The notes below the pieces were generated by a model. That model made no database searches and was not told where the DNA came from. It saw only the letters and a list, made by a program, of their open reading frames with translations. Positions 7,674-45,658 of a DNA stretch of 64,000 bases are shown in pieces. The stretch is from Aminithiophilus ramosus. GTDB lineage: Bacteria > Synergistota > Synergistia > Synergistales > Aminithiophilaceae. The first letter of the stretch is position 1. Each line of letters starts with the position of its first letter. Location of the stretch: positions 248,001 to 312,000 of the forward strand of contig NZ_CP072943.1 in the NCBI RefSeq assembly GCF_018069705.1. Direction: 5' to 3'. The position numbers and the translations under genes are program-made.

Positions 7674-7676
7674 CCG

Positions 7677-7697
7677 GTCCCCTTCCCGATAGGGGAC
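7677..7697 (+). terminator. Stem-loop after the racemase gene
   Basis: GTCCCCT (7677-7683) pairs with AGGGGAC (7691-7697) around a seven-base loop, four bases after the racemase stop. No T-run follows, so termination would be weak or factor-assisted. Confidence 0.4.
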
Positions 7698-7818
7698 GCC
7701 TTCGTGGATGAGGCTCCTTTCTATTACTGTGGGTAGCGGGTAGAACCTGAGCCACCGAGAACCGAGAATGGATATCATGGGGGACGAAGTCCATTTTCCC
7801 CCATCAAAAGGCTTCGCC

Positions 7819-8074
7819 ATGAACGACCCGAAGGTTATCCTCGAAGCGATTTTAGAACTTGCAGATCCTTGGATAACGCCCGATATTTTTCGCACTTTGG
7901 TCTGAGCTTCCCATCGGCAGTAGCCCCCGCAAGGGTTATGTTTGAGGTGCCAAGGCCACAACCATTATCTCGAGGAGGGCTACCGCAGAGGAACGATGCC
8001 ACAGACGTTACCTGGAATGCGGCAGGTCCTTCGAAGATCGCCCGCATCGAAGAAAAGGGCTCCTCGCTATTTAG
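7819..8074 (+). pseudogene. Transposase-like N-terminal remnant
   Basis: ATG 7819 opens MNDPKVILEAILELADPW, which soon meets a stop. A later frame reads RRYLECGRSFED, resembling the zinc-ribbon start of several transposases (pattern RYxCxxCGRxF). The frame is broken and is then cut by the IS5-like element at 8075. With the inverted repeats at 7884 and 9391 this looks like an older transposon into which the IS5-like copy inserted. The assignment is weak. Confidence 0.3.
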
Positions 8075-9316: not shown

Positions 9317-9420
9317 ATAGAGCTGCTGAGAGAGCAGGATCAGGAACAACAGGAATCTGCGCCCTTCATGAGCTTGCTGCCTCAAAACCGAAAGTGCGAA
9401 AAATACTGGGCAGAATCCTA

Positions 9421-11148: not shown

Positions 11149-11150
11149 TT

Positions 11151-12950
11151 TTATCCTCCTATGCTTACAGTGTCTTTTGCCCCAATTTTCCACGCGATGG
11201 ATTTTTGATATTCGTCCCACATGGTTTTATATAAATTGCCCTTGGCCAACAACTCTTCGTGTGAGCCTGCCTCTATGATTTTACCGTTTTCAATCACCAA
11301 TATTTTGTCGACATTTTGAACGCTGGTCAGGCGATGCGCGATCATAAGTGTTGTTTTCCCGCGACGGAGTTCCTTCAAGGCTTTCTGTATTAAATTTTCG
11401 TTTTCTGGGTCAGCAAAGGCTGTTGCCTCATCTAGGAGTACAATTGGGGAATCTTTTAGAATTGCCCGGGCGAGTGCGATTCTTTGTTGCTCTCCACCGG
11501 AGAGATAGGTTCCTTTTGAGCCTATAACCGTATCAAGACCCTTTTGTAGATTGTCTACAATTTCTGTTGACTGAGAAAGTTCTATAGCTCTGTTTATCTC
11601 TTTTTTCTCGGCATTGTTTTTACCGAAAACAATATTTTCCATCAATGATCCTTTAAACAGCCTTGTATTTTGAAATACAAATGAAATACTGTTCATTAGT
11701 TCTTTTTTAGGGATGTCCTTGACATTGACCCCGCCTATCAGCACTTCACCTTCATCAACATCCCAGAAGCGGGCGGCAAGCCTTGCAATTGTCGTTTTTC
11801 CGCCTCCTGAGTATCCTACAAGGGCAAATGTTTCTCCATCGTTCAATTTAAAGCTTATTTTATCTATAGCACGCTTTTTTGTGCTTTTATATGAAAATAT
11901 AACGTTTTTAAACTCTAAACTATGATCTTTTATGGTTTTTACGCTGTTGTTATAGCACATTTGTGGATAGGCCAGAAGATTGTCCAGTCTGTCGATTGCC
12001 TGCTGGGCAATCGCGATATCATGTTGGAAATGCATAGATTTCATCAGGATTAAGGTAAAGGTTGGCGATATCAGAAGATAAAAAATAAAATCTGAAAGCA
12101 CGAGGGGGATGTTTTTTCCGCTTTTTATTAAAAAAATTCCCATTGGAATCAGAAAGAAAGCGGCTGACTGCATAATAACAAGATAGAAGGACATTAGTTT
12201 CCGCCAAAGAAGCGTGTAGGCGTAAACCATTTCTTTATATTTGATAATGCTGTTATAAAAGCGTTTGAAAGAAAAAATAGTTTGGCCAAAGGTCTTTACA
12301 ACGGGAATACCGCAAATATATTCAACGGATTCGGCGCTCATCTCTTCTAAAGAGTCATAGTACATTTTTTGAAATTTTTTGCCTTCAGGGCTTATCATGA
12401 ACCTCATTGTGATAAAGCCCAAAATAATTGGAACCAGGCAGGCAAGCCCCATGCTCCAGTCCACTATAAAAATCAGCGCTAAAAGAATAACGGGGGAGAC
12501 GATACTGCCAGCCATATCCGGGAGCTGATGTGCCAGGAATGAATGCGTCGTTCCCGCTCCGTCATTTACGATTTTGCGTATCCGACCGCTGGCTTGCTGG
12601 TCAAAGAACCCGAGCGGCATGGCCAGCACCTTTTCCATCCCGATCTTCTGCATCCCGACCTCCACGCGGAAGGCTGCAAGATGCGAGCTTGTAAGTGCAC
12701 AGAAATAGAGGGCTATTCCTCCGATTGCGCTTGTAAAGGCAAGCCATGCGTAAACGCTGAGGCTTGAAAAATCGATAGCCCCAGGTGCGGACAATATGTC
12801 CCGTGTTATGTGCCATACGAGTACGAAGGGCAGGATATTGAGCGCAGCGGAAACGCCTGACAATACGAGCGATAAAGGCAGAAGCGTTTTCTTTTTTCCC
12901 ATATAAGGCGTGAATCTTTTTAAAATAAAGGGTTTCTTTTCTTTATGCAT
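11151..12950 (-). CDS. ABC transporter, fused permease-ATPase (first subunit)
   Basis: A 599-residue half transporter with six N-terminal membrane helices and an ATPase domain: Walker A VGYSGGGKTTIARLAARF, signature YLSGGEQQRIALARAIL, then PIVLLDEATAFADPENE. The variant AFADPENE after Walker B is common in YbtP/YbtQ-like and related clostridial pairs, in place of the usual ASLD. Start ATG 12950 is preceded by AAAGGAGG. It shares the AT-rich base use of its partner. Metal-chelate import is a reasonable guess from family and from the iron genes 1-7 kb away, but drug or peptide export is not excluded. Confidence 0.88.
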   Translation of the reverse strand: MHKEKKPFILKRFTPYMGKKKTLLPLSLVLSGVSAALNILPFVLVWHITRDILSAPGAIDFSSLSVYAWLAFTSAIGGIALYFCALTSSHLAAFRVEVGMQKIGMEKVLAMPLGFFDQQASGRIRKIVNDGAGTTHSFLAHQLPDMAGSIVSPVILLALIFIVDWSMGLACLVPIILGFITMRFMISPEGKKFQKMYYDSLEEMSAESVEYICGIPVVKTFGQTIFSFKRFYNSIIKYKEMVYAYTLLWRKLMSFYLVIMQSAAFFLIPMGIFLIKSGKNIPLVLSDFIFYLLISPTFTLILMKSMHFQHDIAIAQQAIDRLDNLLAYPQMCYNNSVKTIKDHSLEFKNVIFSYKSTKKRAIDKISFKLNDGETFALVGYSGGGKTTIARLAARFWDVDEGEVLIGGVNVKDIPKKELMNSISFVFQNTRLFKGSLMENIVFGKNNAEKKEINRAIELSQSTEIVDNLQKGLDTVIGSKGTYLSGGEQQRIALARAILKDSPIVLLDEATAFADPENENLIQKALKELRRGKTTLMIAHRLTSVQNVDKILVIENGKIIEAGSHEELLAKGNLYKTMWDEYQKSIAWKIGAKDTVSIGG

Positions 12951-30624: not shown

Positions 30625-33600
30625 TCAGGGACGGACCCGCCCGGGACAGCCCTCCCGCCAGGGGCAGCAGGGGCAGCGATCGCCCCGGGGAGGAAAGGGT
30701 CCCGCAACGGCCGTCAGGGCGAAGGCCCGGACGGCCGTTGCCGTCGCTCCCGCATCGGCCGGCGGGAAGACTTCTTCCCTGCCGTCGAGATAGATCAGCC
30801 CCGCCTCGACGGTCTTGTCCCGCAGACGTTCCAGCGCCAGGCCGTAGAAGGCGAGCTGGGCCCCGTAGAGGAGGTGGCCCGCCTCGGAGGGGGCGCCGGT
30901 CTTGAAGTCGCGCAGGCGAAGCGTCCCGTCGTCCCAGAAGAGATCCATGGCTCCCCGCAGCGACGGTCCCCCGGGCAGGTCGACGGCAAAGACCGTCTCC
31001 CGCCTGAGCCGCCCCAGCCGGAGCTCTTCGGCCAGCTTTCGGCAGATCTCCGTCGCGGAGAAGGTCTTGAGACGGGTTGTCAGGTTCCGCCTGACGGCGT
31101 CGTCGCGCCAGAGGGGACGGATCTCCCGGGCCATCTCCGATTCGAGGCGCCTCCCCTCGGCCGACGAGGCCTGAGGGAGGGCCTCTTCGAGTCCCTCCGG
31201 CGTCAGGTCCCAGACCCGGCCCAGCAGGTGATGGACGAGGCTGCCGAAGAGGGCGTTGCCGTAGGCCAGCCGTCCCGGCCGCTCCTCCTTCCCCGCCCAG
31301 GGCCTTTCGGAATCGTTGCCGTCGTCGTCGCCGTAGATCTCCGAATCCCATTCGAGGGGCATCTCCAGCCTGTAGCGCAGCCGGTAGGCGTAGGGGCAGA
31401 AGCTGAAGAGGGCGAAGGCCGAGGCGCCCGTCCACTCCAGAAAGGGCTCTCCCGCGGGCGGTTCCGTCCCCCGTCGCCGAGGCGTCGAGGCCCGGCGGGG
31501 CCGGGCGGTTTCCGTCCTTCGCCAGGCCTCGTCGGGAAGGCGATGTTCCCGCAGGGCCTCGTAGAGCCCCTCCTTCGAGGTGTCGCCCCGGCCCGCGGCG
31601 AGCCAGGAGGCGACGTCGGCGAGCCAGCTCCCCTCGGGAAGGCCCGGCGCCTCTTTCTCCTTGGCGCGTCCGCCCAGGAGGCCGCAGAGGATGAGGGCCT
31701 CCTGGGCCCGCGTGGCGGCGACGTAGAAGAGGCGGCGGCTTTCCTCGACGAGATCTTCCCTTTCGAGGACGTCGTGGAGTCTTTTCGACGGCGGCTCCTC
31801 GTCGGAATCGCCTCGGCTCAGGGCGGCGCCGACGAAACGCGACGGCGCCAGGCCGGCCCGAGGCCTCTGCCCCACGGAGCGTTCCAGGCCCAGAAGGGCG
31901 ACGATGGGAAACTCGAGGCCCTTGGCGGCGTGGACGGAGAGGACGCGGATGACGTCCTCCTTCTCTCCCAGGACGGGCGCCTCCTCCAGTGAGCTCTGCT
32001 CCTCGGCGCCTCGGGCCATGTAGTCGGCGCAGCCCCGAAGGGAGCGCCCTCTCGCGGCCTCGAACTCGCGGGCCCTGTCGACGGCCCGGCCCAGGTTGGC
32101 CAAAGCCCGCCGCCTCAGGTAGGGGGCCAGGGCCATGAGAGGCTCGGCCCGGAAGGTGAGCTCCTCGAGAAGGCGGGCCGGTCCCAGGACGAGGGCCCGA
32201 CGGCGTTTCCGTTCCAGGTCGTCGGCCACGTCGGGCCGACGATCGGCGACGACCCGAGCCAGCGGTTTTCCGTCTCTTGTGGCCTCGTCGGCCAGAGCCG
32301 TCGCCTCGCGGAGATCCAGGCCCGAGAAAGGGGAGGCCAGCCATCCCGCCAGGGAACGGTCGTCTCCCCCGTCGGCCAGGGCCCGCAGGAGGCAGACGGC
32401 GTCGCGCACCTCGCCGCGGGAGAAGAAGGTCTTGCGGCCCAGGAAGACGGCCGGCAGCCCCCGCTCCCAGCAGAGGACCTCTTCGAGAAGGCCGTAGGCG
32501 CTCCGCGTCGGCACCAGGAGGGCCATGTCGCGCCACGTGGCCTCCCGCGACCTGCCCTCTCTGCCGTCCCAGAGCGGCCTTCCCCTCATCGACTCCAGGG
32601 TGAGGGCCAGTGCACGGACGAGGCGCCGTCGGGGCCTGTCGTCCCGCTCCTCTTCGGTGAGGCCTTCGGGCGCCTCGCCGTCCTTGGCCTCCATGAGAAG
32701 GGTCAGGGCGGGAATCTCCGAGGCCCCGTCGCGTTCCTTCCACCAGGGGAGATCGTCGGGAAAGTCCAGCTCCTCGTAGGGGAGCGGCTTCTTCGCCGTC
32801 AGCCCCTCCCTCCAGATGTGGCCGAAGAGGCCGTTGACGACGTGAAGATGGGCCGAGCGGCTACGGAAGCTCTCCGTCAGGGCCTCGTAGGCCGTCCCCT
32901 CCTCCTTGGCTCGGGCTCGGGCGATGGCGTCGGCGAAGAGGTCGGGCTCGGCGTGGCGGAAGCGGTAGATGGACTGTTTGAGGTCGCCGACGATGAAGAG
33001 CGGGCAGGGCCCCGAGGCGCGGGAGGCCCGGGCGGCGGCGGCGATGAGCTCGTCCTGGACGACGTCGGTGTCCTGGAACTCGTCGACGAGAATGGCCCGG
33101 AAAGGGGTGATCCCCTGGGGATGGTCCCGCAGGAGGTCGCGGCCGAGACGGATCATGTCGTCGAAGCCGAAGAAGCCCCGGCGGCGCTTCTCCTCCTCCC
33201 AGAGGGCCCAGAGAAGGGCCGCCAGGCCGAGAAAGCGGGCCCGTCGCTCCCTGTCGCCGTCGGATTCGCCGAGATCCATCCAGGCCTGGAGCGCCCCGCG
33301 GTCGATGAGGGCGTCGCGGAAGTCGACGAGGCGGACGAAACGTCCTCCCGAGCGACGCTCCAGCTCGGCCTGGGCCGCCTTGTAGATCGCGGCTCCATGT
33401 CCTTTCGTGGCGGCGATCTCCTGAAAGAAGCGGACGAGGGAGACGACGGCCTCGGCGAGGGTCTCCTCGTCGGGGGCCGCCCATCGGGCCTTCATGGCGG
33501 CGAAGAGCGGCTCCGCCTTGGCCTTCGCCCTCTCGTCGGGTTCGATGGCTTCCAGCACGGCGCCCCACCAGGCGCAGGCGTCGCGCCAGAAGGCACGGCG

Positions 33601-34305
33601 TCGGGTCGCGTAGAGGGAGCGGGCCTCCTCGTCGAGGGCCGCCACCGCCTCGGCGGAGAGGGGCAGGGAGTCGGGGCTGCCGTCGCGGCTGCCGAAGAGG
33701 GCCGCCGTCGAGCGGGCCAGGGAGATGACGTCGTCTACGGACTGGCTCTCCAGAAGGGATCTCGTCTTTTCGTCGTCGAGGCAGAGGGCCAGATGGGCCC
33801 TCTGGCGGGGAAGACGGACGTCGAACCAGGGTCGGTCGAGGCGTTCCAGGGCCTCGGCGGCGGAGCGCCAGAAGGCCTCCTCGTCGGGAGCCGTCGGCAG
33901 GCCCGTTCCCGGAGGAAGGCCCAGGTGAAGGGCGTTGCGGCGCACCACGTCGTAGGCGAAGGCGTGGATCGTCGAGATGGGGGCCTCGCCGATGCGGCCT
34001 CTCTCGTCGTCGAGCCGGTCGGCTCCGGCGTCGCCCCTTGCCCGCAGCTCGCGGGCCCACTGGTCCAGTGTGGCGCCGATGCGGTCGGCCATCTCCTGGG
34101 CCGCTTTTTCGGTGAAGGTGAGGGTCAGAATTTCCGACGCGGCCAGTCCCTGGACGACGAGCCAGGCGAAGCGTGCCGCCAGGGTGCGCGTCTTTCCCGT
34201 TCCCGCACCGGCTCCGACGACGACGAACGGTTCCCGGGAGAGGACGGCCCGGCGCTGATTCTCGCGCAGGCCGTCGAGGAGAAAGAGAGGGGCCTCAGTC
34301 GTCAT
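30625..34305 (-). CDS. addA: AddA-like UvrD helicase/nuclease
   Basis: A 1,226-residue superfamily 1A helicase fused to a RecB-type nuclease, the larger subunit of a double-strand-break resection enzyme. Walker A is GAGAGTGKTRTLAARF (residues ~32-47), followed by ILTLTFTEKAAQEM (motif Ia) and ILVDEFQDTD (motif II); SVHAAKGLEFPIVALLGLER lies in the second helicase domain. The C-terminal nuclease has LRGAMDLFWDDGTLRLRDFK (Asp and DxK). Four cysteines, one in SFCPYAYR and three in CPCCPWREGC (Cx2Cx5C), suggest an Fe-S cluster as in AddB. The start overlaps the addB end by 11 bases. Confidence 0.88.
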   Translation of the reverse strand: MTTEAPLFLLDGLRENQRRAVLSREPFVVVGAGAGTGKTRTLAARFAWLVVQGLAASEILTLTFTEKAAQEMADRIGATLDQWARELRARGDAGADRLDDERGRIGEAPISTIHAFAYDVVRRNALHLGLPPGTGLPTAPDEEAFWRSAAEALERLDRPWFDVRLPRQRAHLALCLDDEKTRSLLESQSVDDVISLARSTAALFGSRDGSPDSLPLSAEAVAALDEEARSLYATRRRAFWRDACAWWGAVLEAIEPDERAKAKAEPLFAAMKARWAAPDEETLAEAVVSLVRFFQEIAATKGHGAAIYKAAQAELERRSGGRFVRLVDFRDALIDRGALQAWMDLGESDGDRERRARFLGLAALLWALWEEEKRRRGFFGFDDMIRLGRDLLRDHPQGITPFRAILVDEFQDTDVVQDELIAAAARASRASGPCPLFIVGDLKQSIYRFRHAEPDLFADAIARARAKEEGTAYEALTESFRSRSAHLHVVNGLFGHIWREGLTAKKPLPYEELDFPDDLPWWKERDGASEIPALTLLMEAKDGEAPEGLTEEERDDRPRRRLVRALALTLESMRGRPLWDGREGRSREATWRDMALLVPTRSAYGLLEEVLCWERGLPAVFLGRKTFFSRGEVRDAVCLLRALADGGDDRSLAGWLASPFSGLDLREATALADEATRDGKPLARVVADRRPDVADDLERKRRRALVLGPARLLEELTFRAEPLMALAPYLRRRALANLGRAVDRAREFEAARGRSLRGCADYMARGAEEQSSLEEAPVLGEKEDVIRVLSVHAAKGLEFPIVALLGLERSVGQRPRAGLAPSRFVGAALSRGDSDEEPPSKRLHDVLEREDLVEESRRLFYVAATRAQEALILCGLLGGRAKEKEAPGLPEGSWLADVASWLAAGRGDTSKEGLYEALREHRLPDEAWRRTETARPRRASTPRRRGTEPPAGEPFLEWTGASAFALFSFCPYAYRLRYRLEMPLEWDSEIYGDDDGNDSERPWAGKEERPGRLAYGNALFGSLVHHLLGRVWDLTPEGLEEALPQASSAEGRRLESEMAREIRPLWRDDAVRRNLTTRLKTFSATEICRKLAEELRLGRLRRETVFAVDLPGGPSLRGAMDLFWDDGTLRLRDFKTGAPSEAGHLLYGAQLAFYGLALERLRDKTVEAGLIYLDGREEVFPPADAGATATAVRAFALTAVAGPFPPRGDRCPCCPWREGCPGRVRP

Positions 34306-37012
34306 CGTCTTTTCCCTCCCGTCTCAGTTCGTCGCGGCGGCACAGGGAGCCGTAGGGGCAGCCCGGACAGGCCTTGCTGTCGTAGTCGGGGGGGAAACGC
34401 CCCGCGAGAACGGCCTCGGCCAGAGCCCCCAGAGCCGACCGGGCCTCTTCGAGGGCGCTGTCGAGATCTTTCCTGATCCCCCTGTCGAGCCGGACCGTTC
34501 CCCTGTGTCCCTCGGCCAGGGCTCCGACGAGCCTGCCGTCTCCGTGACAGGCGTAGACGTAGCCGGCGACGGACCGGCCCGCCTCGCGCAGGGCAAGGCC
34601 GTAAGCGGCGAGCTGAAGGGCCTTTTCGTAGCCGGAGGAACTTCCCAGCTTGTAGTCGAACAGCAGCAGAGCCCCGTCGTCGAGGCTGTCCGCCCTGTCG
34701 CAACGCCCGCGGAAGGTGACGCCTCCGATATTCAGGGGGGGGAGCGTCCACTCCCGCTCCATCGAGCGCCGTCGCGTCGCCAGGGAGCCCTCTTCCCCGT
34801 CGAGGCGCCGGGCCAGGGCCCGCAAACGTTCGGCCAGCTGGCCCCTCATGCGGGGGAAATCGGTCAGGCGGGAGGCCAGTTCGCCTCCCGCGGCGAGAAC
34901 CTCGTCGAAGAGGGCCGCCGTCGACCGCTCCAGAGGCCCCTCTACCTCCCACGCCCTCTGCCAGAGGCCGTGGAGGAAAGAGCCGATCTGGGCGGAGTCG
35001 AAGAGATCTCCGTCGGCGGAGGCGAGGTCCTGTCGGGCGTAGAGGAAGGGGCAGCGGCGGAAGCGGTCGAGGCCGCTGAGGGGGACCGAAGGAGGGGCGG
35101 ACAGGCAGGCGACGGGGCCCTCCCTCGGCCGCGACCAGGGCTCGTCCAGGATCTCGACGGCCTCGACGTAAGGCTCCCGGACCGAGAGAACGAGCCGCGA
35201 CAGAGGCAGCTCCGCCGTCGCTCCCTCGACGGCCCACCCCGAGTCCAGGGCGGGGGCCAGAAGGGGCGTCTCCTCCAGAGGGCGCCCCGAGTCGTCCTGG
35301 AGGGCCCGGCAGAGGAACACGTCGGGAGCCGAGGCGAGAAGGCGCCGAAAAAGTCCCTCCCGGGCCAGACGTCGGTCCGATGCCGTCGGCAGGTGGAGAG
35401 GTCCCAGATCTCCCTCGTCGTGGAGGGTCGATCGGAGACGGTCGGAGAGAAAGGGGCCTTCGCCGCTCTTCCCGGGCCAGCGGCGGTGATCGGTTCCGAG
35501 GAGGACCACCACTTCGGCCCTTTCGAGAACGGGAAGGTTGTCGTCGTAAAGGGAAAGGGCTTCGCGCAGCGGCAGAGGGGGCAGCAGGGAGGACTCCTGG
35601 GCCACGAGGTCCAGAAAGGTCCGGCCGTTCTCGCCGGAGAGCTCCATCCGGGACCACTCGGGCCGATCGTCGCCCGATCGGACGAGATCGAGGCGTCGCG
35701 TCAGCTCCTTCAGCGTGCCGTTGACGGACCGAGCCTCCTCGTCGAGCTCGATGTCGTCGCCGACAAGACGGGCCATCCGCTCCGGCGCGGCCAGGGTCTC
35801 GCCGAGGAAGCGGACCGTTTCGGCCAGAAGGGCCGTCGCCGTCGTTCCCCTCCCGACCGATTCGGCCAGAGAGGCCGCCGCCTCGAGGCAGAGCCGTCCG
35901 CGGCTTCCGTCGCCGAGGCTCTCGCGCCAGGCCTCGAGTCCCTGGGGGCGGCGGATGTCGACCGCCGAGGGGAGGTCTCCGGCGAGGAGGGGACTGGACA
36001 GGAGGAGGAGGGTCTCGTCGAAGGGCCAGCCGTCGCGGCCCCTTTCCAGAAGGTCTCGCAGGATCTTCCAGATCGTCCCTTCGGCCATGGCCCGACGACG
36101 GCGGCTCACGTAGGGGATGCGGTAGCGCCGCAGGGCCTCCTCGACGGTCGCCGTCCCGGAGACGACGGTTATGCCCCCCCAGCCGGGGAAGGGGCGGTCG
36201 GCGAAGGCCCCCTCTCCGGAGCTCCAGAGGGCCAGCTCTCGGCAGAGGAGCGTGGCCTCGAGGCGGTCGTCGCCGCCGAGGAGACGGTGGACTCGGGAGG
36301 GGGGCCCGTCGGCCTCCGTCCCCGACGATCGAAGGTCGGCGAGCTGGCCGGCCGCGTCGGGATAGCCCTCGAGACCCGTCAGGGGGTGGAAGAGCTCGAT
36401 CGTCACGTCCAGGGCCTGAAGGCGGCGGAGGAGGGAAAGCTGGCCGTGAGTCAGGCTCAGGAAGCCGACGAAGGAGAAGGTCTTCCGGCCCCAGCGCTCC
36501 AGAAAGGCCCTTCCCGACCGGGCCAGGACGGAGGCCGCCTCCGCCTCCAGGGCCGCCCCGTCGATGAGGGCACGCTCCCTCAGGGTCCTCCCGTAGCTCC
36601 CGTAGAGGCGGCAGAGCCGCCCCTCGCTGTCGCTCCTGGTGCAGGCCCCGCAGCTCTCCCGGCAGCCCAGGGCACGGGCGAACCGTTCCGGCGAGACCTC
36701 CTGGCGAATCAGCTCCCGGATGTCGTCGCCGAGGGGGACGAGGAAGGCTCCGGAAAGGCCGTCGGCCTCTTCGAGACCGCGAAGCAGAAGCCAGCGGTCG
36801 ATGGCGTCGACGATGGTTCTTTCGGGCCGGTCCGCCGCCCTGAAGATCTCGTCGCAGAGGCGGCGCCAGCTCCAGGGCGTCGTCTTGACGAACGTCTCCA
36901 GTCCCCGTCTTTCGGCCATGGAGGGCAGGATGAAGAGGGTCTCCTCCTCTTCGCCTCGAAGGAGGGAAGCCAGATCGTCGAGGGTTCTGTAGCCCTTCAG
37001 ATGAAGTGTCAT
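34295..37012 (-). CDS. addB: AddB-like helicase-nuclease subunit
   Basis: A 905-residue partner of AddA. The N-terminal part is a degenerate UvrD-like fold with no clear Walker A; the C-terminal ~300 residues form a PD-(D/E)XK nuclease (GVTFRGRCDRADSLDDGALL, then LFDYKLG and LQLAAYGLALREAG). The Fe-S cysteines are visible: FRRCPFLYARQD and, near the end, ACPGCPYGSLCRR (Cx2Cx5C). The start ATG is preceded by GGAGGTGA. It lies upstream of and overlaps addA, the usual order. It is shorter than the ~1,150 residues of the Bacillus protein. Confidence 0.85.
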   Translation of the reverse strand: MTLHLKGYRTLDDLASLLRGEEEETLFILPSMAERRGLETFVKTTPWSWRRLCDEIFRAADRPERTIVDAIDRWLLLRGLEEADGLSGAFLVPLGDDIRELIRQEVSPERFARALGCRESCGACTRSDSEGRLCRLYGSYGRTLRERALIDGAALEAEAASVLARSGRAFLERWGRKTFSFVGFLSLTHGQLSLLRRLQALDVTIELFHPLTGLEGYPDAAGQLADLRSSGTEADGPPSRVHRLLGGDDRLEATLLCRELALWSSGEGAFADRPFPGWGGITVVSGTATVEEALRRYRIPYVSRRRRAMAEGTIWKILRDLLERGRDGWPFDETLLLLSSPLLAGDLPSAVDIRRPQGLEAWRESLGDGSRGRLCLEAAASLAESVGRGTTATALLAETVRFLGETLAAPERMARLVGDDIELDEEARSVNGTLKELTRRLDLVRSGDDRPEWSRMELSGENGRTFLDLVAQESSLLPPLPLREALSLYDDNLPVLERAEVVVLLGTDHRRWPGKSGEGPFLSDRLRSTLHDEGDLGPLHLPTASDRRLAREGLFRRLLASAPDVFLCRALQDDSGRPLEETPLLAPALDSGWAVEGATAELPLSRLVLSVREPYVEAVEILDEPWSRPREGPVACLSAPPSVPLSGLDRFRRCPFLYARQDLASADGDLFDSAQIGSFLHGLWQRAWEVEGPLERSTAALFDEVLAAGGELASRLTDFPRMRGQLAERLRALARRLDGEEGSLATRRRSMEREWTLPPLNIGGVTFRGRCDRADSLDDGALLLFDYKLGSSSGYEKALQLAAYGLALREAGRSVAGYVYACHGDGRLVGALAEGHRGTVRLDRGIRKDLDSALEEARSALGALAEAVLAGRFPPDYDSKACPGCPYGSLCRRDELRREGKDDDD

Positions 37013-37324
37013 CGCTCACCTCCGCTGTCCGGGGCCTTGCCCGTTTCCGGTCCCTCCGTAGCGCGGCTGAGGGCCTTCTGCAGAGACAAAAGCCGATTCT
37101 CCCGATGTGCAATTTAAGGTTAACCCCCTTTCCCGTCAAGCCTCCACGCCGATGGACAGAGAGGGCCTGCGATGGCACAATGAAAGAAGTTTCCTCCTGA
37201 AGCGCGAGGGGGGATGTCGGCAGGGAAGGCCGGAAGAAGGGGGCCCTCGGCGTCCCCCCTCTTCCCTTCGTGAAGGCGGTTGCAGGACCTCGTCGCCGAC
37301 GATTCCGAGAGAGGACGGTGTGGG

Positions 37325-39679
37325 ATGAGGCAGGCAAAGAAGGCGCTGTTGACCGTTCTCGTCCTGGGATCTCTGCTCTCGGTCTTTGCCGGTCCCCTTG
37401 CCGCCGAGCCCGTCGCCTTCCCGTCGCTGGAGGCCCTCGAACCTCTCGTGGGAGAGGGGCCGGAGCTCCTGGAGGCCCTGGCCGCTATGGAACGGGACGA
37501 ACATCTCCGGAACCTCCAGAGTCAGCGCCAGGGACCTAAGGCCTTCGGCGCCCTGGCCTACGGCTACAGCGACGAGCCCGTCAACGCCACCTCGGAGGAG
37601 AGCCTCTCCTACGGCAACGTCTCGGCTCGGGCCGGCGTCTCCTTCCCTCTCCTGGGAACGTGGAGCCGGGAGAAGATCGAGGTCCTCCTGGCCGAGCTGA
37701 ACCTTCTCGGCGGACGGGCCCTGGCCGAGGCGACGGCGGAGCGGAATCTGACGGCCCTCCGCAAGGCCTATGCCCTCCTCTGGATCGAGGGGCGCCGGGG
37801 CGAGATGATCGAGGCCTTCCTCGCCGACGAGGCCGAGACGGAGCGCCTTCTGGCCGAGCGGGTCAGCCGGGGCTTCCTGCTCGAGCGGGACCGTCTGGAA
37901 TTCCTCTCGGCCTTCGACATCGCCAGAAGGGATCTCGTCGAGTCGAAGCTCCGACGCACTCAGGCCCTCCAGGCCCTGCGCCTCGCCACGGGGCGCTCCT
38001 GGGAGGGCATCCCCGCCTCGCCGCCCTACCTTCCGGGACCCATCGAAGACGGCGAGACCCTGCTGGACCACGTCGCCGATCTGGCCGATCTGCGCTACCG
38101 CCGGGACTTCCTGGAGCTGAGGCGGCGCCTCTTCGAGACGACGGGTCGCATCGATCGAGAGGGAACCGTCGACATCGGCGTGACGGCCGGCCGGGACTTC
38201 CCCGGCTCGACGGGGACGGGGCTCTACCTCTCCTTCTCTTTGAGGGAGCCCTTCGGGACCCTCGGGGCCCGTGAGGACGAGGCCCGCCTCGCCGCCAGCG
38301 CCGACCTCGAGCGGGAGCGCCGTTCGGCCGTCGTGGCCCGGATCCGCGTCGAGGGGGAACTGATGGAAGCCCTCGTCCTGCGCGAATACGCCCTGGCCTC
38401 GATCGAGGCCGGAGAGCGTCGACTCGATGCGGCCTGGGAGGCCCTGCGCGTCGACACGCTGCGGCACGGGGCTCTGGCCGGGGAGACCTTGGAAAAACTT
38501 CAGCAGAGCCGTTACGGCTACTTCCGCGTCGCCCTCGATCTCCTCTCGGCCCAGTCGCTTCTCCTCCAGACCGAGGCCGAGCTCGTCCGCTTCGCCTTCC
38601 CCGAAGGAGGGCCTCCGCCGCAAAGCCGGCTTCTTCCTCGGTCCCTGACCCTGTCACGGCCCCTTCTCGATCCCTCCTGGCTCGCGGGGAGCCCTTTCCC
38701 CGACAGCCCCCTTTCTCGGGCCGAGGGACCCTCCCTCGCTCCGCCGTCTCCCGGGACGGTCCCTTCCGTCGCGGCGAGCCCCTCTCTTCCGCCGCCCGCC
38801 CTTTCCGGAGGAGGACCTTCCCGTCCGGAGCCTTCGCCCGCTGTCGCGGAGGGACGTCCGGAGCCCCTGCCCCCCCGGGCCGCCTCGGCGAGCCCCGGCC
38901 GCAAGGAGCCCCTGGACACGGGGCTGACGGCCTACGTCTGGGACGCCTCTTCCTTCCTCGACAGCGCCTGCCGCGCCGCGGCGCTGGAGCGGTTCCGGAA
39001 CGAGGGCTTCTCCCGGATGCTGCTTTCCTTCGATGCCGCGCAGATCGCCTCGTTCCGCACCGAAGGGGGACGCAGAAGCCTGGAGGCCTTCCTCTCCGCC
39101 GCCCGATCGCAGGGGCTGACCGTCGACCTCCTCCTGGGCGATCCGGCCTGGATCCTGCCCGAACACCGTCAGGGGCTGGTCCGCCTCGTCCGCGAGCTGG
39201 AGCCCTTCCCCTTCCGCGGACTCCATCTCGACCTCGAGCCCGATTCCCTTCCCGGCGCCGCGGAAAAACGTCTGGAGCTCGCCGCCGAGCTGGTCAGGAC
39301 GCTGGAGATCGTCCGGACCCAGACGGATCGCCCCCTGGCCCTTTCCGTCCATCCCCGCGAGCTTGAGGGGGAGCTGGGCGATGTCGTCGGGCCCGGGCTG
39401 GAGAGGATCCCCGTAGAGGAGGTGGCCGTCATGATCTACTCGACCCGCGTCGAGGCCGTTCTGGAGCGATTCGAGAGGCTTCGCCGAAAACATCCGGGAC
39501 TGAATCTGGCCCTGGCTCAGAGCGTCGAGTCCCTCCTCTCCCCTCAGGAGAGCTACGGGGCCTACGGAAGGGAGGCCTTCCGCGCCCGAGCGGCCTACCT
39601 CGCCGAGCGCCTCGGCCGAGAGGGAGCGGCCGCCATCGTCGTCCAGGCCTGGAAGGACTATGAGGAGATGAGGCCGTGA
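37325..39679 (+). CDS. TolC-like outer-membrane channel fused to a glycosidase-like domain
   Basis: A 784-residue exported protein, first gene of the polysaccharide locus. After a signal peptide (LTVLVLGSLLSVFAGPLAAE), residues ~25-430 look like an outer-membrane efflux protein: long helices with repeated AEL/LEA heptads and short strand segments (VSARAGVSFPLLGTWSREK; VDIGVTAGRDFP). A Pro/Ser-rich linker of ~100 residues follows, then a C-terminal ~250-residue TIM-barrel-like domain (GLTAYVWDASSFL, FRGLHLDLEPDSL with an acidic strand end, PLALSVHPRELEG, VAVMIYSTR) like glycoside-hydrolase-type barrels. I infer a channel that also trims or binds the exported polymer. The GTGA stop overlap links it to the next gene. 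Confidence 0.7.
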   Translation: MRQAKKALLTVLVLGSLLSVFAGPLAAEPVAFPSLEALEPLVGEGPELLEALAAMERDEHLRNLQSQRQGPKAFGALAYGYSDEPVNATSEESLSYGNVSARAGVSFPLLGTWSREKIEVLLAELNLLGGRALAEATAERNLTALRKAYALLWIEGRRGEMIEAFLADEAETERLLAERVSRGFLLERDRLEFLSAFDIARRDLVESKLRRTQALQALRLATGRSWEGIPASPPYLPGPIEDGETLLDHVADLADLRYRRDFLELRRRLFETTGRIDREGTVDIGVTAGRDFPGSTGTGLYLSFSLREPFGTLGAREDEARLAASADLERERRSAVVARIRVEGELMEALVLREYALASIEAGERRLDAAWEALRVDTLRHGALAGETLEKLQQSRYGYFRVALDLLSAQSLLLQTEAELVRFAFPEGGPPPQSRLLPRSLTLSRPLLDPSWLAGSPFPDSPLSRAEGPSLAPPSPGTVPSVAASPSLPPPALSGGGPSRPEPSPAVAEGRPEPLPPRAASASPGRKEPLDTGLTAYVWDASSFLDSACRAAALERFRNEGFSRMLLSFDAAQIASFRTEGGRRSLEAFLSAARSQGLTVDLLLGDPAWILPEHRQGLVRLVRELEPFPFRGLHLDLEPDSLPGAAEKRLELAAELVRTLEIVRTQTDRPLALSVHPRELEGELGDVVGPGLERIPVEEVAVMIYSTRVEAVLERFERLRRKHPGLNLALAQSVESLLSPQESYGAYGREAFRARAAYLAERLGREGAAAIVVQAWKDYEEMRP

Positions 39680-40749
39680 AGATCCGCTTCAACACTCCCG
39701 AGGGCAAGGCCGCCGACGTCCGGGCGGGTGTCCGCGTCCCCTACGCTCCGGCCAAACGGGCCTTTCCCCGCTGGCGCTGGTACCTCGTCGTCCTCCTCGT
39801 GACCAGTCCCCTCCTGTTTTTCCTCTCCAAAGTGGCCATCGGCTGGCTCATGGCCAGCTCCCCCGGCGTCGTCTACATGGAGCGTCTTTCCGTCAACAGC
39901 CCCCGGCCCGCCGTCATCGAAAACCTTTCCTTCGGGCGGGGCGACTTCGTCGAGGCCGGAAAACCGCTCCTCCGCCTCTCCGACGCCTCGCTGGAACTGC
40001 TTCGCGCCCCTCTCGAGGCCGAGCGTCGGGCCCTGCTCCTCCAGAGCCCCCAGTCCAATCCCGTCTCGGCCCAGCGCCGCGCCCTGGTTCTGGCGCAGGA
40101 GGTGACGGACTACGAGGCCCGCCGCCTTGGGATCATCGAGGAACTTTTCCGCAAAGGGGCGGCCACGAGGGCGGAAGTGGACGAGGCCGCAGGGAGGGTC
40201 CAGCGGGCCAGGGCCGATCAGATCCGCTCCGGAGCCGATCTCGAAGAGGCCCAACGGATTTTTGTCGACCCCAACGTCCCCGTCCGGCTCGCCCAGATCG
40301 AGGCGGAACTGAAGTCGCTGACCGAAGGGAAGGGCCCCCTCGAGATCAGGAGCCCCATCTCGGGGCAGATCCTGGAGCTTTTCGTCGGGCCCGGCGAGGC
40401 CGTCGGCCAGGGGACGCCTCTGGCCCTCATCGCCGACCCGGAGCGCGTCTGCCTGATCACCTTCGTCGCCGCCAAGGACATGCGTTTCGTCGAGCCCGGC
40501 AGGGACGTCCGGGTCCGCTTCCCCGACGGAACCCTGATGGCGGCCTCCGTCGACGGTTCCCCCCTCCTGGCCGAGCCGACGCCCCTCTCCCTGGCCGGAC
40601 CTCTGGCCGATGCCGGGCCGGCCCTCAAGGTACGCCTCCTCCCCGGAGAGCCGCTGAAGGGGGCCTACCGCGTCGAGGGCCTTCCCGTGACGGTCTACTG
40701 GGGACAGCGCAGGCCCTGGCACGGACGCCTGCCGGAGAAGGAGGAGTAG
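39676..40749 (+). CDS. HlyD/Alg44-like periplasmic adaptor
   Basis: A 357-residue membrane-fusion protein with a cytoplasmic N-terminus (~30 residues), one membrane helix (RWYLVVLLVTSPLLFFLSK), a lipoyl half-motif (VIENLSFGRGDFVEAGKPLL), a coiled-coil hairpin of ~150 residues and the second half (IRSPISGQILELFVGPGEAV). It would bridge an inner-membrane synthase and the outer-membrane channel encoded just upstream, as Alg44-like adaptors do. No PilZ domain is visible, so c-di-GMP sensing, if any, lies elsewhere. The start GTG 39676 overlaps the channel gene's TGA. Confidence 0.8.
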   Translation: MKIRFNTPEGKAADVRAGVRVPYAPAKRAFPRWRWYLVVLLVTSPLLFFLSKVAIGWLMASSPGVVYMERLSVNSPRPAVIENLSFGRGDFVEAGKPLLRLSDASLELLRAPLEAERRALLLQSPQSNPVSAQRRALVLAQEVTDYEARRLGIIEELFRKGAATRAEVDEAAGRVQRARADQIRSGADLEEAQRIFVDPNVPVRLAQIEAELKSLTEGKGPLEIRSPISGQILELFVGPGEAVGQGTPLALIADPERVCLITFVAAKDMRFVEPGRDVRVRFPDGTLMAASVDGSPLLAEPTPLSLAGPLADAGPALKVRLLPGEPLKGAYRVEGLPVTVYWGQRRPWHGRLPEKEE

Positions 40750-40752
40750 GGA

Positions 40753-42147
40753 ATGGAGCCGCTCAACGTCGTCCGATTCCGTCTTCGAGGCGAGACCTTT
40801 TTCCCTGACCGCCCCTTTATCCGGGACATCGCCTCCCTGGACGAGCTGGAAACCGTCGCCGCCGATGCAGACCTCTTCCTCGTCGACGGAGAGGGTCCCC
40901 TGGCCGACGGCCGCGCCTTCCTGCGCCGATGCCGTTCCCACCCCGAGAGCTGCGCCAAGCCTCTCTTCCTGCCCACCTCCCTCGGCGAGGAGGAGGACCT
41001 TTTCGCCGACGGCGTCGTCGAGTCCCTCGACGACGCGCTGCGCCGGGGGAGGGAGATGAGAGACCGCCTCGCCCAGGTCAACGGCCCGGCCCTTCGGGAG
41101 TCCAAGGACTTCCGCCTTCTGGCCTACCTCTTCGCGCGCATGGACGGCGAACTGGAACCCCATCGCTACCCCTTCACGCCCCGCGTTTACGGCTATCCCG
41201 TCGCCGAGATCCTGGCCGGAGACGACGGCGATACCTTCTTCTGGCTTCAGTCTCTGAAGGAACGGGGCCTTCTGGCCAGGGGGACGCTGACGGACCGGAT
41301 CCGCCTCTGTCCCCGCTGCGACTGTTCCCACCTGAACTACATCGACGTCTGTCCCAACTGCGGCAGCATCGACATCACCCGCAAGGAATTCATCCACTGC
41401 TTCACCTGCGGCCGCGTCGGTCCCACAGAGGATTTCATCCAGGAAAATCAGATGCGCTGCCCCTTCTGCAGCACCCGGCTGCGCCATCTGGGATCGGATT
41501 ACGACCACCCCCTGGAGAGTTATCGCTGCAACGACTGCGGTCATCGCTTCGTCGAGGCCGACGTCGTCGCCGACTGTTTCTGCTGCCGCACCCGGTCCCG
41601 TCCCGACGAGCTCGTCGTCAAAACCGTCTGCGGCTACCGCATCAGCGAGGCGGGAAAGACATCGGCCCGAGTGGGGAGCCTGGAGGATGTCTATGCCCTT
41701 CTCGACAGCCTCAACTACGTCGTCCCGGCCTACTTCAACCAGCTGCTGAACTGGTCCCTCCTCCTCAACCGGCGCTACAGCGACGAGAGCTTCTCCCTCA
41801 TCGCCATGCGTCTGGCCAATCTGCCCGAGCTTTCGGAGAGGTTGGGCCGCCAGAAGGCGACGCAGCTCGTCGACGCCCTGGCCGGTCGCCTGCGCCAGAT
41901 GGTCCGCAGCACCGACGTGACGACGCGGACGGCCCTGTCGACGCTCTGGCTGTTCCTCCCCAGGACCGACGCCGCCGGAGCGGCGATTCTGGCAGGCAGG
42001 ATCAAGGAGCTGGAGAGGCTCGCCGCCGAGGGCTCCGAGGCCCTTCTCGACTTCCGCGTCCGCGCCTTTTCCTCCCCCGACGACGTCGCCGAAGGCGACG
42101 ACGCCGGGAGGATCCTGGCCCGGATGGCCGGAGAGCTCGAGGCGTGA
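40753..42147 (+). CDS. Zinc-ribbon (TackOD1-like) protein with degenerate GGDEF domain
   Basis: A 464-residue cytoplasmic protein. Residues ~1-115 form a receiver-like alpha/beta region. Residues ~186-280 contain a run of CxxC ribbons (CPRCDC, CPNCGS, CFTCGR, CPFCST, CNDCGH, CFCCRTR) matching my recollection of TackOD1 metal-binding domains. The C-terminal ~150 residues have GGDEF topology (FSLIAMRLANLPELSERLG, then WLFLPRTDAAGAA), but the GGDEF signature is ALSTL, so it cannot make c-di-GMP. Five residues before it, R385-S-T-D388 keeps the RxxD inhibitory-site motif. I infer a c-di-GMP receptor, as for PelD. AAGGAGGAG lies upstream. Confidence 0.7.
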   Translation: MEPLNVVRFRLRGETFFPDRPFIRDIASLDELETVAADADLFLVDGEGPLADGRAFLRRCRSHPESCAKPLFLPTSLGEEEDLFADGVVESLDDALRRGREMRDRLAQVNGPALRESKDFRLLAYLFARMDGELEPHRYPFTPRVYGYPVAEILAGDDGDTFFWLQSLKERGLLARGTLTDRIRLCPRCDCSHLNYIDVCPNCGSIDITRKEFIHCFTCGRVGPTEDFIQENQMRCPFCSTRLRHLGSDYDHPLESYRCNDCGHRFVEADVVADCFCCRTRSRPDELVVKTVCGYRISEAGKTSARVGSLEDVYALLDSLNYVVPAYFNQLLNWSLLLNRRYSDESFSLIAMRLANLPELSERLGRQKATQLVDALAGRLRQMVRSTDVTTRTALSTLWLFLPRTDAAGAAILAGRIKELERLAAEGSEALLDFRVRAFSSPDDVAEGDDAGRILARMAGELEA

Positions 42148-43484
42148 GGGATCTGGCCGCGGTGTTTTCGCGCCTTTTTTGCCTTTTCGCCGGCGATCCT
42201 CTCCTGTCACGGGCCTGGGAGATCGCCTTCCGCTTCGTCCCCTTCGTCCTCTTCTTCGAGCTGCCCCTCTATCTCCTCGTCATCCTCGGCGTCCTCCGCC
42301 ACGGCCTGGCGCGGATGAACGAGCTTCCCTGGCGGAGCGGGTACTACCCCTCCGTCTCCTGCATCGTCACCTGCTACAGCGAGGGCGAGGCCGTGGCGCA
42401 GACGATCCGATCCCTGGCCGAACAGATCTACCCCGGCCCGATCCAGATCCTTCCCGTCATCGACGGGGCGGCCCGAAACGGCGGGACCTATCGTGCCGCC
42501 AGGGCCATGGAGCCCGTCGTGGCGGCCATGAAAAACCGGACCCTCCAGGTCATCCCCAAGTGGCAGAGGGGGGGACGGGTCTCGGCCCTCAATACGGCAC
42601 GTAACTTCGCCGACGGCGAAATCGTCATGGCCCTCGACGGCGACACCTCCTTCGACAACGACATGGTCGAGCGGGCCACGCGCCACTTCGAGGATCGGCG
42701 CGTCGTCGCCGTCTCGGGCTGCCTGCGCGTCCGCAATGTCCGCGCCAGCCTGGCCACCCGCCTCCAGGCCATCGAGTACTTCCTCTCGATCCAGGCCAGC
42801 AAGACGGGCCTGAGCGCCTTCAACGTCGTCAACAACATCTCCGGCGCCTTCGGCGTCTTCCGGCGGACCGTCCTCGACGCCGTGCGGGGATGGGACGCGG
42901 GAACGGCCGAGGATCTGGACATGACGCTGCGGATCAAAAACTACTTCGCCCGTCAGGGCGGCAATTTCCGCATCGTCTTCGACCCCGAGGCCCTGGGGTT
43001 CACCGACGTGCCCGAGACCTTCCGGGGCTTCTTCCTCCAGCGCCTACGCTGGGACGGAGACCTCTCCTACCTCTACTTCCGCAAGCACTGGCGCTCCTTC
43101 TCTCCCCACCTCGTGGGCTGGAAGAACTTCTTCCTCATGATCTGGACGGGGCTGCTCTTCCAGATCGTCATGCCTCTGGTCATCATCCTCTACACGGTCT
43201 ACCTCCTCGCCGTCTACCCGCCCCTCTTCGTCCTCTCCGTCCTGGCCCTCATCTACCTCTTCTACCTCGTCATGACCTTCCTGCTCTACGTTCCCTTCGT
43301 CGTCCTCCTCTCGGAGCGTCCCCGCGAGGACTTTTCCCTCCTGCCCTGGATCGTCCTGACCCCTCTTTTCGCCTTCGCCGGTCGCATCAACAACGCCTTC
43401 GCCACCTTATGGGAGCTTTTGGGCCGGGGCCACGAGGACACGTCCATGGCCCCCTGGTGGACGACGCGCAAGAGCAAGTTCTGA
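42144..43484 (+). CDS. Processive family-2 glycosyltransferase (polysaccharide synthase)
   Basis: A 446-residue inner-membrane synthase. One or two N-terminal membrane helices precede a GT2 domain (YYPSVSCIVTCYSEGEAVAQ) with the UDP-sugar DxD in LDGDTSFDND (residue ~165), the catalytic-base motif TAEDLDMTLR (~255) and the processive QxxRW in LQRLRWDGD (~300). About four C-terminal membrane helices follow, the set found in BcsA, PgaC and HasA-like synthases. No PilZ domain follows, unlike BcsA, so regulation may come from the RxxD protein upstream. GTG 42144 overlaps that gene's TGA. The sugar cannot be predicted. Confidence 0.88.
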   Translation: MRDLAAVFSRLFCLFAGDPLLSRAWEIAFRFVPFVLFFELPLYLLVILGVLRHGLARMNELPWRSGYYPSVSCIVTCYSEGEAVAQTIRSLAEQIYPGPIQILPVIDGAARNGGTYRAARAMEPVVAAMKNRTLQVIPKWQRGGRVSALNTARNFADGEIVMALDGDTSFDNDMVERATRHFEDRRVVAVSGCLRVRNVRASLATRLQAIEYFLSIQASKTGLSAFNVVNNISGAFGVFRRTVLDAVRGWDAGTAEDLDMTLRIKNYFARQGGNFRIVFDPEALGFTDVPETFRGFFLQRLRWDGDLSYLYFRKHWRSFSPHLVGWKNFFLMIWTGLLFQIVMPLVIILYTVYLLAVYPPLFVLSVLALIYLFYLVMTFLLYVPFVVLLSERPREDFSLLPWIVLTPLFAFAGRINNAFATLWELLGRGHEDTSMAPWWTTRKSKF

Positions 43485-43795: not shown

Positions 43796-45658
43796 CTATT
43801 TCCCCGGGAGGTAGGCGACGTACTCGCCCAGGCCCAGCTCCTCGAGGGTTTCCGCCTTGGGGATCCCCTCTTCGTCCCAGCCCCGGAGCCGGTAATAGTC
43901 GTCGAGGATCCTGTCGTGAGGCGTCGGGGTCTTGCCGGCCCGGCCGCCGACAATGGCGGCCAGGCCCATCTTGGGCGGCAGCGTGTCGTCTTTGCGGCTC
44001 ATGCCGTCGCGGACGTTGATGAGCCGCTGGAGGGTGAAGCCCCGCTCGGCGCAGCGGAACATCTCTTTGGGCGGGTGCTCCTCGCCGGTGATCTCCTTCA
44101 TGAGGGCGCTGACGTCGCTGAGCGTCATCCCGGCCCCCTTGATCATGAACTTGCAGAGGGTCAGGCTGTTGTAGAGGACGCTCGTCGTCTGGTAGATGTA
44201 GGCGCTGTAGGCGGCCTCCTCGACGGAGAAGCGGTCCGGAGGGCTCTCCTGGCCCAGCTCGGGGTACATGAGCCCCGTCGCTCCGGCCTGGCAGTCGCCC
44301 CGTTCGTGGCAGGCGCCGCGCGTCCCCGTGGCGTAGTTCACGCCGAGGCCGAAGACGGCCCGGGGATCGTGGGCGGGGAAGTCGAGATTCTTGACCTGGA
44401 CGGTGATCTTCTCCGAATCGTGGCCGATGGCGGCGGCCGCCCCGAGAATGCCCTTCTCGAAGAGCCTGCCGATTCCCTCGAGGCGGGCGATCTTGTCCGT
44501 CAGATCGACGAGGGCCTCCCCGTCGCCCCAGCGTATGGCCTTGCCGTCGTTGTCGGCCGTCGTGATCCATCCGGCCTCGAAACACTCCATGAGGAAGCCG
44601 ATATAGGCGCCGCAGGAGACGGTGTCGATGCCCATCCGATTGGCTCTGTCGTTGGCCCGGCAGACGGCGCCCAGATCATCGACGAGAAGGTTCGCCCCCA
44701 TCATGCCGAGCGTCTCGTATTCGGGGCCGTTCCCCTCCAGGACCCGCCCGTCGGGGTACTCGAAATGAATGTGGCGGTGACAGCCGATGGGGCAGTTGGC
44801 GCAGGGGAGGGGCTTGACCTTGAGATAGTCGGTGTAGCGGGGTGCCCCCAGAAGGGCCGCCCCCCTGTCCCAGACGTCGCCGCGCCAGTATTTGATGGGG
44901 ACGTCGCCCATCTCCTGGAGGGGGACCATGACGACGGGCGTGCCGTGCTGGCGGAATCCCTCGCCCTGCTTGTGGAGGAGCTGGAAGAGCTCTTTGGAAA
45001 GGGCCGCGGCCTTCTGCCCGTCGGCGACGGGGACCTCCTTCGTCCCCCAGGCGGCGATGGCCTTGAGGTTTTTCGAGCCCATGACGGCGCCCGAGCCGCC
45101 TCGACCGGCGAAGGAGTGGCCGTCGCAGGAGATACAGGCGATGGGGTTCCCTCTCTCTCCCGCCGGCCCGATGTTGAGGGCGTTGATGCGTCTGTCGCCC
45201 AGGATCTCTTTGATCTTCTCGCCCGTCTCGACGGTGTCGAGCCCCCAGAGCGCGGCGCCGTCGAGGAAACGGACGCCGTCGTCATCGATGAAAAGCCAGG
45301 TGGGGTCGGAGGCGCGTCCCTCGATGACGAGGAGATCGTAGCCCGTCTTCTTGAAGGCCGGCGCCCAGTGGCCTGTCCCGGCCGAGTCGAGAAAGGAGCC
45401 CGTCAGAGGACCTCTGGTGATGACGCTCCATTTGGCGTTGCCCGGAACGTTGACGCCCTGAAGGGGGCCCACGGCGAAGATGAGCCTGTTCTCCGGGGCC
45501 AGCGGGTCCGTCCGGGGCGGAACCTCTTCGAGGAGGATCTTGGCTCCCAGGGCGGATCCGCCCAGAAGGTCCTTGAGGTCCTTCTCGGCGATCGCCTCGG
45601 CCTTCCAACTCTTTTCCGTCAGATTCACCCGCAGCTGCCGTTTCCACCAACCTGCCAT
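43796..45658 (-). CDS. Aldehyde:ferredoxin oxidoreductase (tungsten type)
   Basis: A 620-residue AOR-family enzyme that oxidises aldehydes to carboxylic acids and passes electrons to ferredoxin. The N-terminal pterin-binding region is typical (KDLLGGSALGAKILLEEVPP; NVPGNAKWSVITRGPLTGSF; GRGGSGAVMGSKNLKAIA). The [4Fe-4S] ligands appear as CANCPIGC near residue 287 with a fourth Cys later (GACHERGDC, ~445-450). Length is normal. It follows the lactate operon after a stem-loop gap of 210 bases and precedes the MoaD-like gene. Its aldehyde substrate is not evident; amino-acid fermentation by-products would be reasonable. Confidence 0.93.
   Translation of the reverse strand: MAGWWKRQLRVNLTEKSWKAEAIAEKDLKDLLGGSALGAKILLEEVPPRTDPLAPENRLIFAVGPLQGVNVPGNAKWSVITRGPLTGSFLDSAGTGHWAPAFKKTGYDLLVIEGRASDPTWLFIDDDGVRFLDGAALWGLDTVETGEKIKEILGDRRINALNIGPAGERGNPIACISCDGHSFAGRGGSGAVMGSKNLKAIAAWGTKEVPVADGQKAAALSKELFQLLHKQGEGFRQHGTPVVMVPLQEMGDVPIKYWRGDVWDRGAALLGAPRYTDYLKVKPLPCANCPIGCHRHIHFEYPDGRVLEGNGPEYETLGMMGANLLVDDLGAVCRANDRANRMGIDTVSCGAYIGFLMECFEAGWITTADNDGKAIRWGDGEALVDLTDKIARLEGIGRLFEKGILGAAAAIGHDSEKITVQVKNLDFPAHDPRAVFGLGVNYATGTRGACHERGDCQAGATGLMYPELGQESPPDRFSVEEAAYSAYIYQTTSVLYNSLTLCKFMIKGAGMTLSDVSALMKEITGEEHPPKEMFRCAERGFTLQRLINVRDGMSRKDDTLPPKMGLAAIVGGRAGKTPTPHDRILDDYYRLRGWDEEGIPKAETLEELGLGEYVAYLPGK

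Follow-up and report, generated by a model that had tools for sequence, protein, structure and literature searches.

A Mxd-type locus of Aminithiophilus ramosus with a channel-hydrolase fusion as the predicted outer-membrane exit for an exopolysaccharide

Organization of the four-gene locus

We analyzed a stretch of 64,000 nucleotides of Aminithiophilus ramosus (contig NZ_CP072943.1, positions 248,001 to 312,000; hereafter the window), in which a preliminary description had proposed four overlapping or nearly adjacent genes for a polysaccharide secretion system. All four open reading frames were recovered on the plus strand, tightly packed, and are referred to here as genes A to D.

37325..39679, + strand: gene A, 784 aa, ATG start at 37325
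39676..40749, + strand: gene B, 357 aa, GTG start at 39676
40753..42147, + strand: gene C, 464 aa, ATG start at 40753
42144..43484, + strand: gene D, 446 aa, GTG start at 42144
37013..37324, no strand assigned: divergent intergenic region 5' of A, containing a promoter-like site
37153-37181, + strand: promoter-like site, consensus match only

Genes A and B overlap by 4 nt (GTGA, 39676-39679), as do C and D (GTGA, 42144-42147), and 3 nt separate B from C. Translation of gene A might instead begin at a TTG farther upstream, at 37280. The source genome consists of one contig of 3.1 Mb, in which the locus stands isolated, with a divergent gene starting at 37012 upstream and genes of the minus strand downstream of D. 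A search for Rfam riboswitches upstream of A found none. Inspected by eye, two large upstream genes on the minus strand (30625-37012) resemble an AddA/AddB-type helicase-nuclease pair, and the downstream stretch 43796-45658, also on the minus strand, encodes a probable tungsten-type aldehyde:ferredoxin oxidoreductase.

Gene A encodes a predicted channel fused to a hydrolase-like barrel

Gene A had been described as an outer-membrane channel fused to a glycosidase-like barrel, and both an OEP match in its N-terminal half and a modelled (beta/alpha)8 barrel in its C-terminal part agree with that description.

aa 1-~27, + strand: signal peptide of A, hydrophobic N-terminus
aa ~28-440, + strand: TolC/OEP-type channel region of A, OEP Pfam match
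aa ~441-532, + strand: Pro-rich linker of A
38921..39676 (aa 533-784), + strand: C-terminal (beta/alpha)8 barrel of A, related to GH18/PelA (GH166) by model, profile and Foldseek
39224..39238 (aa 634-638), + strand: HLDLE motif on strand 4 of the barrel

The OEP match of A itself lies barely above the Pfam cut-off (23.2 bits versus 22; E 6.6e-5), and OEP is matched by 13 of the 17 members of the A family, with a best E of 7.9e-14. The TolC-type outer-membrane channel predicted for the N-terminal half of A agrees with these matches, although the score of A itself is low. Several other TolC-type genes of the source genome score stronger than A, which indicates that A is a dedicated, divergent member.

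No Pfam family, GH18 included, matched the barrel. An AlphaFold2 model with a mean pLDDT of 95 showed a (beta/alpha)8 fold, whose best Foldseek matches were the GH18 chitinase 6k7z and the PelA hydrolase 5tsy/5tcb; TM-scores against these known enzymes were only about 0.55, so that substrate and activity are uncertain. Profile searches matched PDB entry 10yv at an E of 1.5e-8, and among their matches are a putative Cellulomonas fimi glycosidase and, at weak scores, chitinases. Distant members of the barrel family scored 25-27 against Glyco_hydro_18, under the cut-off of 29.6. Assignment of the barrel of A to GH18 was rejected, given the lack of an over-cut-off Pfam match and of the motif DGxDxDxE. 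Aligned to this motif, A reads xGxHxDxE, with a His replacing the first Asp of DxDxE. Residues H634, D636, E638, M703, Y705 and E735 were invariant in an alignment of 17 A proteins. In our reading, HLDLE and MxY of A occupy the positions of DxDxE and MxY in GH18, and D636 and E638 on strand 4, together with E735 on strand 7 (39527-39529), are candidate catalytic residues.

Gene B encodes a HlyD-type adaptor and gene D a membrane GT2 synthase

Gene B had been likened to both Alg44 and HlyD. The protein matches HlyD_3 (Pfam, E 4.9e-15) and has one N-terminal transmembrane segment (aa 37-55) and an alpha hairpin, in agreement with the HlyD likeness, whereas a PilZ domain sought in B with Pfam gave no match, so that the likeness to Alg44 is true of the periplasmic part only.

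The assignment of D as a processive GT2 synthase was borne out by matches to GT2 Pfam families and by the processive motifs. D is a membrane GT2 with at least three transmembrane segments, and residues D165, D167, D257, Q299, R302 and W303 were kept in 39-40 of 40 synthases.

42636..42644, + strand: DGD (DxD) nucleotide-sugar motif, by conservation
42906-42914, + strand: AED, by conservation
43038-43052, + strand: QRLRW (QxxRW), by conservation

The best match of D among curated synthases was PgaC/IcaA of the PNAG system (PgaABCD), at 139.8 bits versus a model cut-off of 422.3. PgaA, PgaB and PgaD are absent from the locus, and membership in the PNAG system was rejected. D also scores to NodC. 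The resemblance of D to PgaC, NodC and chitin synthases, taken with the GH18/PelA likeness of the barrel, may point to an N-acetylhexosamine polymer.

Gene C combines TackOD1 with a degenerate GGDEF domain

The zinc-ribbon/degenerate-GGDEF protein that had been proposed for C was confirmed by matches to TackOD1 (E 2.9e-69) and to a degenerate GGDEF domain (E 1.5e-7).

C, + strand: REC-like N-terminus, TackOD1 (aa 115-297) and degenerate GGDEF (aa ~327-464), by Pfam and model
41095..41643, + strand: TackOD1 metal-ribbon domain, eleven conserved Cys and one His
41905..41916, + strand: RSTD, the RxxD I-site (R385, D388), 5' of the lost GGDEF motif

The structure model of C (pLDDT 90) has a PleD-like layout, with PleD/GGDEF structures as best matches. 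In TackOD1, Cys186, 189, 200, 203, 219, 236, 239, 259, 262, 275 and 278 and His215 are kept in no fewer than 43 of 45 loci; in the window protein the domain is 100% identical to that of CP074691.1, 'Synergistota bacterium strain L-13'. The name TackOD1 was given to an archaeal output domain that has no assigned function.

The position of the GGDEF motif reads ALSTL in C, and the GGDEF positions are unconserved across the 45 loci. The I-site is kept, with R385 in 42/45, D388 in 43/45 and R or K at the third residue, R416, in 40/45, and RxxD is almost the sole invariant feature inside the GGDEF remnant. PelD binds c-di-GMP via the two charged residues of RxxD, R and D, and via another Arg located 32-35 positions further along; R385, D388 and R416 would correspond to these residues, and C is predicted to bind c-di-GMP likewise. 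At least 12 further GGDEF domains with strong matches are encoded in the source genome, which indicates that the signal is available to C.

Alternatively, C might not respond to c-di-GMP at all, in which case TackOD1 would be a sensor of metal or redox state, and what is left of GGDEF would be purely structural. The twelve near-invariant metal-type ligands and the lack of an assigned function for TackOD1 are compatible with such a sensor. The near-exclusive invariance of RxxD argues against it, as does the reported binding of c-di-GMP by MxdA of Shewanella oneidensis, a homologue of C, even though one older report describes the influence of MxdA on c-di-GMP as only indirect. We regard a C without c-di-GMP response as improbable.

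The gene set is conserved in three phyla

Co-occurrence of the four genes was checked across genome samples of three phyla, and the genes were found conserved as a set in all three; a contig scan with a single sequence gave only 3 loci. The sample used for the Synergistota counts comprised 61 genomes, that is, the source genome and relatives of the order. An over-cut-off TackOD1 and a full-strength A barrel occurred in exactly the same 13 of these 61 genomes, a co-occurrence that exceeds chance, and in 13/13 strong Synergistota loci the four genes are adjacent in the order A-B-C-D. In one draft genome (locus L021, 3306-5753), A is split over two reading frames by a frameshift or a sequencing error. 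A 14th genome (G007) carries on contig C2 a short lone barrel piece (L109, 6315-7034, minus strand) with HLDLE changed to HLDLG and no cluster neighbours; this fragment is probably the relic of a lost locus.

Outside the Synergistota, the order is C-D-A-B in Planctomycetota (L029) and Pseudomonadota (L030, L031, L092 and L094). The record of L030 is titled 'Pedobacter sp.' MAG and was sampled alongside Shewanella-family genomes; the organism name looks wrong, Pseudomonadota being expected. In L031, the C-D-A-B set lies at 6722-12544 of the 29-kb mobilizable Aeromonas caviae plasmid pKAM329_3 (NZ_AP024139.1), and the presence of a complete set on such a plasmid indicates that the whole system is probably able to move between hosts. 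GT2 and HlyD genes accompany strong TackOD1 in 12/12 loci of the Pseudomonadota sample; in the Planctomycetota sample, where several contigs end early, GT2 was found in 10 and HlyD in 9 of 18 TackOD1 loci. In the distant relatives L099, L100 and L096, the barrel sits on a different N-terminus (an AMIN domain in L100) and the adaptors have no alpha hairpin, which suggests another exit design.

Relation to the Mxd system of Shewanella

The mxdABCD operon of S. oneidensis, which we took to be a candidate relative, was then tested by means of a primer. A promoter primer from PMC3691769 had one exact match among 153 genomes, in G1061, which located the mxd operon of strain MR-1; the other mxd promoter primers map next to this match. 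In the family of G583, no exact match to the primer was found.

In MR-1 (SO_4180 onward) the mxd genes are likewise contiguous, and those matching C, D and B have TackOD1, GT2 and HlyD domains. C corresponds to MxdA (33% identity over 329 aa, E 3e-68), which carries TackOD1 (E 4.7e-71) and a degenerate GGDEF; D corresponds to MxdB (48% identity over 415 aa, E 3e-141); and B corresponds to MxdC (26% identity, E 8e-25), with the adjacency of the genes retained as well. Gene order differs, being C-D-B in MR-1 and A-B-C-D here. No counterpart of A, either a TolC channel or a glycosidase gene, was found in the MR-1 operon. The fourth MR-1 gene, presumably MxdD, appears to be a small ORF after MxdC, about 122 aa long and with a single transmembrane segment; no gene for such a small membrane protein is inserted among the four genes here, and MxdD is not established as an essential part of the Mxd definition.

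The combination of parts had been called one that could not be named. This does not stand for B, C and D, which are homologues of MxdC, MxdA and MxdB, so that three of the genes match a named system; it does stand for the fusion in A, which has no MR-1 counterpart. No description of the four-gene set or of the channel-hydrolase fusion was retrieved when the literature was searched for TackOD1 and the domain combination, and mxd, TolC and HlyD all go unmentioned in a survey of synthase-dependent operons from 2020. The locus is Mxd-type, and a single part of it is new, namely the fusion of channel and hydrolase as the predicted exit.

In the synthase tree, MxdB falls in a clade of 25 rows that splits into two sister groups, one A-bearing (18 rows, support 87) and one A-less and Mxd-like (7 rows, including L034, which is not firmly placed). 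The tip of the adaptor hairpin follows the same division.

40156..40167 (B aa 161-164), + strand: GAAT, predicted adaptor hairpin tip, by conservation

The hairpin tip of HlyD-type adaptors is the part proposed to contact TolC. GAAT is present in every A-bearing close relative and is different in the A-less adaptors of the Mxd clade, a correlation between tip type and presence of A that traces back to only one or two evolutionary events.

The sister Mxd clade without A also fits a plain Mxd relative, in which the polymer exits elsewhere and A is an accessory periplasmic or outer-membrane hydrolase for matrix turnover with its TolC part as a mere anchor, and so do some distant loci, such as L099 and L100, whose barrel lacks a recognisable TolC part. 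However, the fusion gene adjoins the adaptor gene in every close relative that bears A, and fusions of an OEP channel to a GH18-like barrel recur, with strong OEP scores, in more distant Planctomycetota. We therefore consider an accessory A unlikely, if somewhat less so than a C without c-di-GMP response. These distant fusions also make it no less likely that the Mxd branch lost A than that A was gained.

In S. oneidensis, biofilm structure is reported to depend on the mxd genes, and mxd mutants show a matrix/aggregation phenotype with loss of biofilm. This phenotype argues against a D that makes a short glycan or glycolipid of the Nod-factor kind, exported by B and A, in place of a long matrix polymer, as does the absence of an acyltransferase or deacetylase gene from the locus. 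The scores of D to NodC besides PgaC speak for a short product. TolC-type channels, moreover, suit small cargo. On balance, we give a short product little credence.

Comparison with other secretion systems

The parallels to alginate and Pel systems that had been drawn for the locus hold as functional analogies concerning the receptor and the fold of the hydrolase, and the locus is a member of neither family. Pel uses the synthase PelF, export by PelB, and a deacetylase. Like C, PelD has a degenerate GGDEF with intact RxxD, and, like the barrel of A, PelA has a GH-type periplasmic hydrolase. PelD, however, has TM and GAF parts, which in C are replaced by the REC-like domain and TackOD1, so that C resembles a PelD-type receptor as an analogy only. 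Membership in Pel was rejected: PelF, PelB/PelC/PelG and the deacetylase are absent from the locus, and its synthase D is a GT2. With alginate (Alg8-Alg44), the locus shares a GT2 and an adaptor of the inner membrane that has a membrane-fusion domain in the periplasm; this membership was likewise rejected, as B has no PilZ, AlgE, AlgK and AlgX are absent, and the predicted exit is of TolC type.

An HlyD adaptor and an OEP channel are also common to TolC-dependent tripartite efflux and type I secretion. According to the abstract of a 2021 review (PMC8277102), the engines of TolC machines are ABC, RND and MFS transporters, whereas the inner-membrane partner here is a GT2 synthase.

Proposed mechanism and implications

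Synthesis and secretion of a polysaccharide, as originally proposed, is well supported by the domains and by the conserved set. Homology, gene order, co-conservation, motifs and the barrel fold are established directly, and from them we consider it probable that the locus encodes an exopolysaccharide system of Mxd type that depends on a synthase, is controlled by c-di-GMP and has an outer-membrane exit of its own; D, B and A would form the path and C would be the switch. D would polymerise a nucleotide sugar and push the chain across the inner membrane. C would be the cytosolic receptor, c-di-GMP at the I-site of its dead GGDEF switching D on, with a TackOD1 metal ribbon that probably makes contact with D or with a regulator. 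B may act as the periplasmic adaptor linking D to A, and the chain would leave through the TolC-type outer-membrane channel of A, whose tethered periplasmic GH18/PelA-like barrel may trim or edit it. The polymer would most likely be of N-acetylhexosamine type.

A broader proposal, which we hold to be evenly balanced, is that of a widespread class of tripartite TolC machines with a GT2 engine, a TackOD1 c-di-GMP gate and a hydrolase in the channel, of which Mxd would be a reduced branch that lost the channel and borrows a housekeeping TolC.

Mxd has been studied for a long time as a biofilm determinant of Shewanella, yet in the accessible literature we found no account of the Mxd polymer, of its outer-membrane exit or of the c-di-GMP effector domains. 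MxdA carries TackOD1 and an intact I-site, and in relatives a fusion of channel and hydrolase is encoded next to the synthase, which makes the missing steps of Mxd, namely polymer exit and the c-di-GMP site, directly testable. The same findings link TackOD1 to the synthesis of exopolysaccharide in bacteria.
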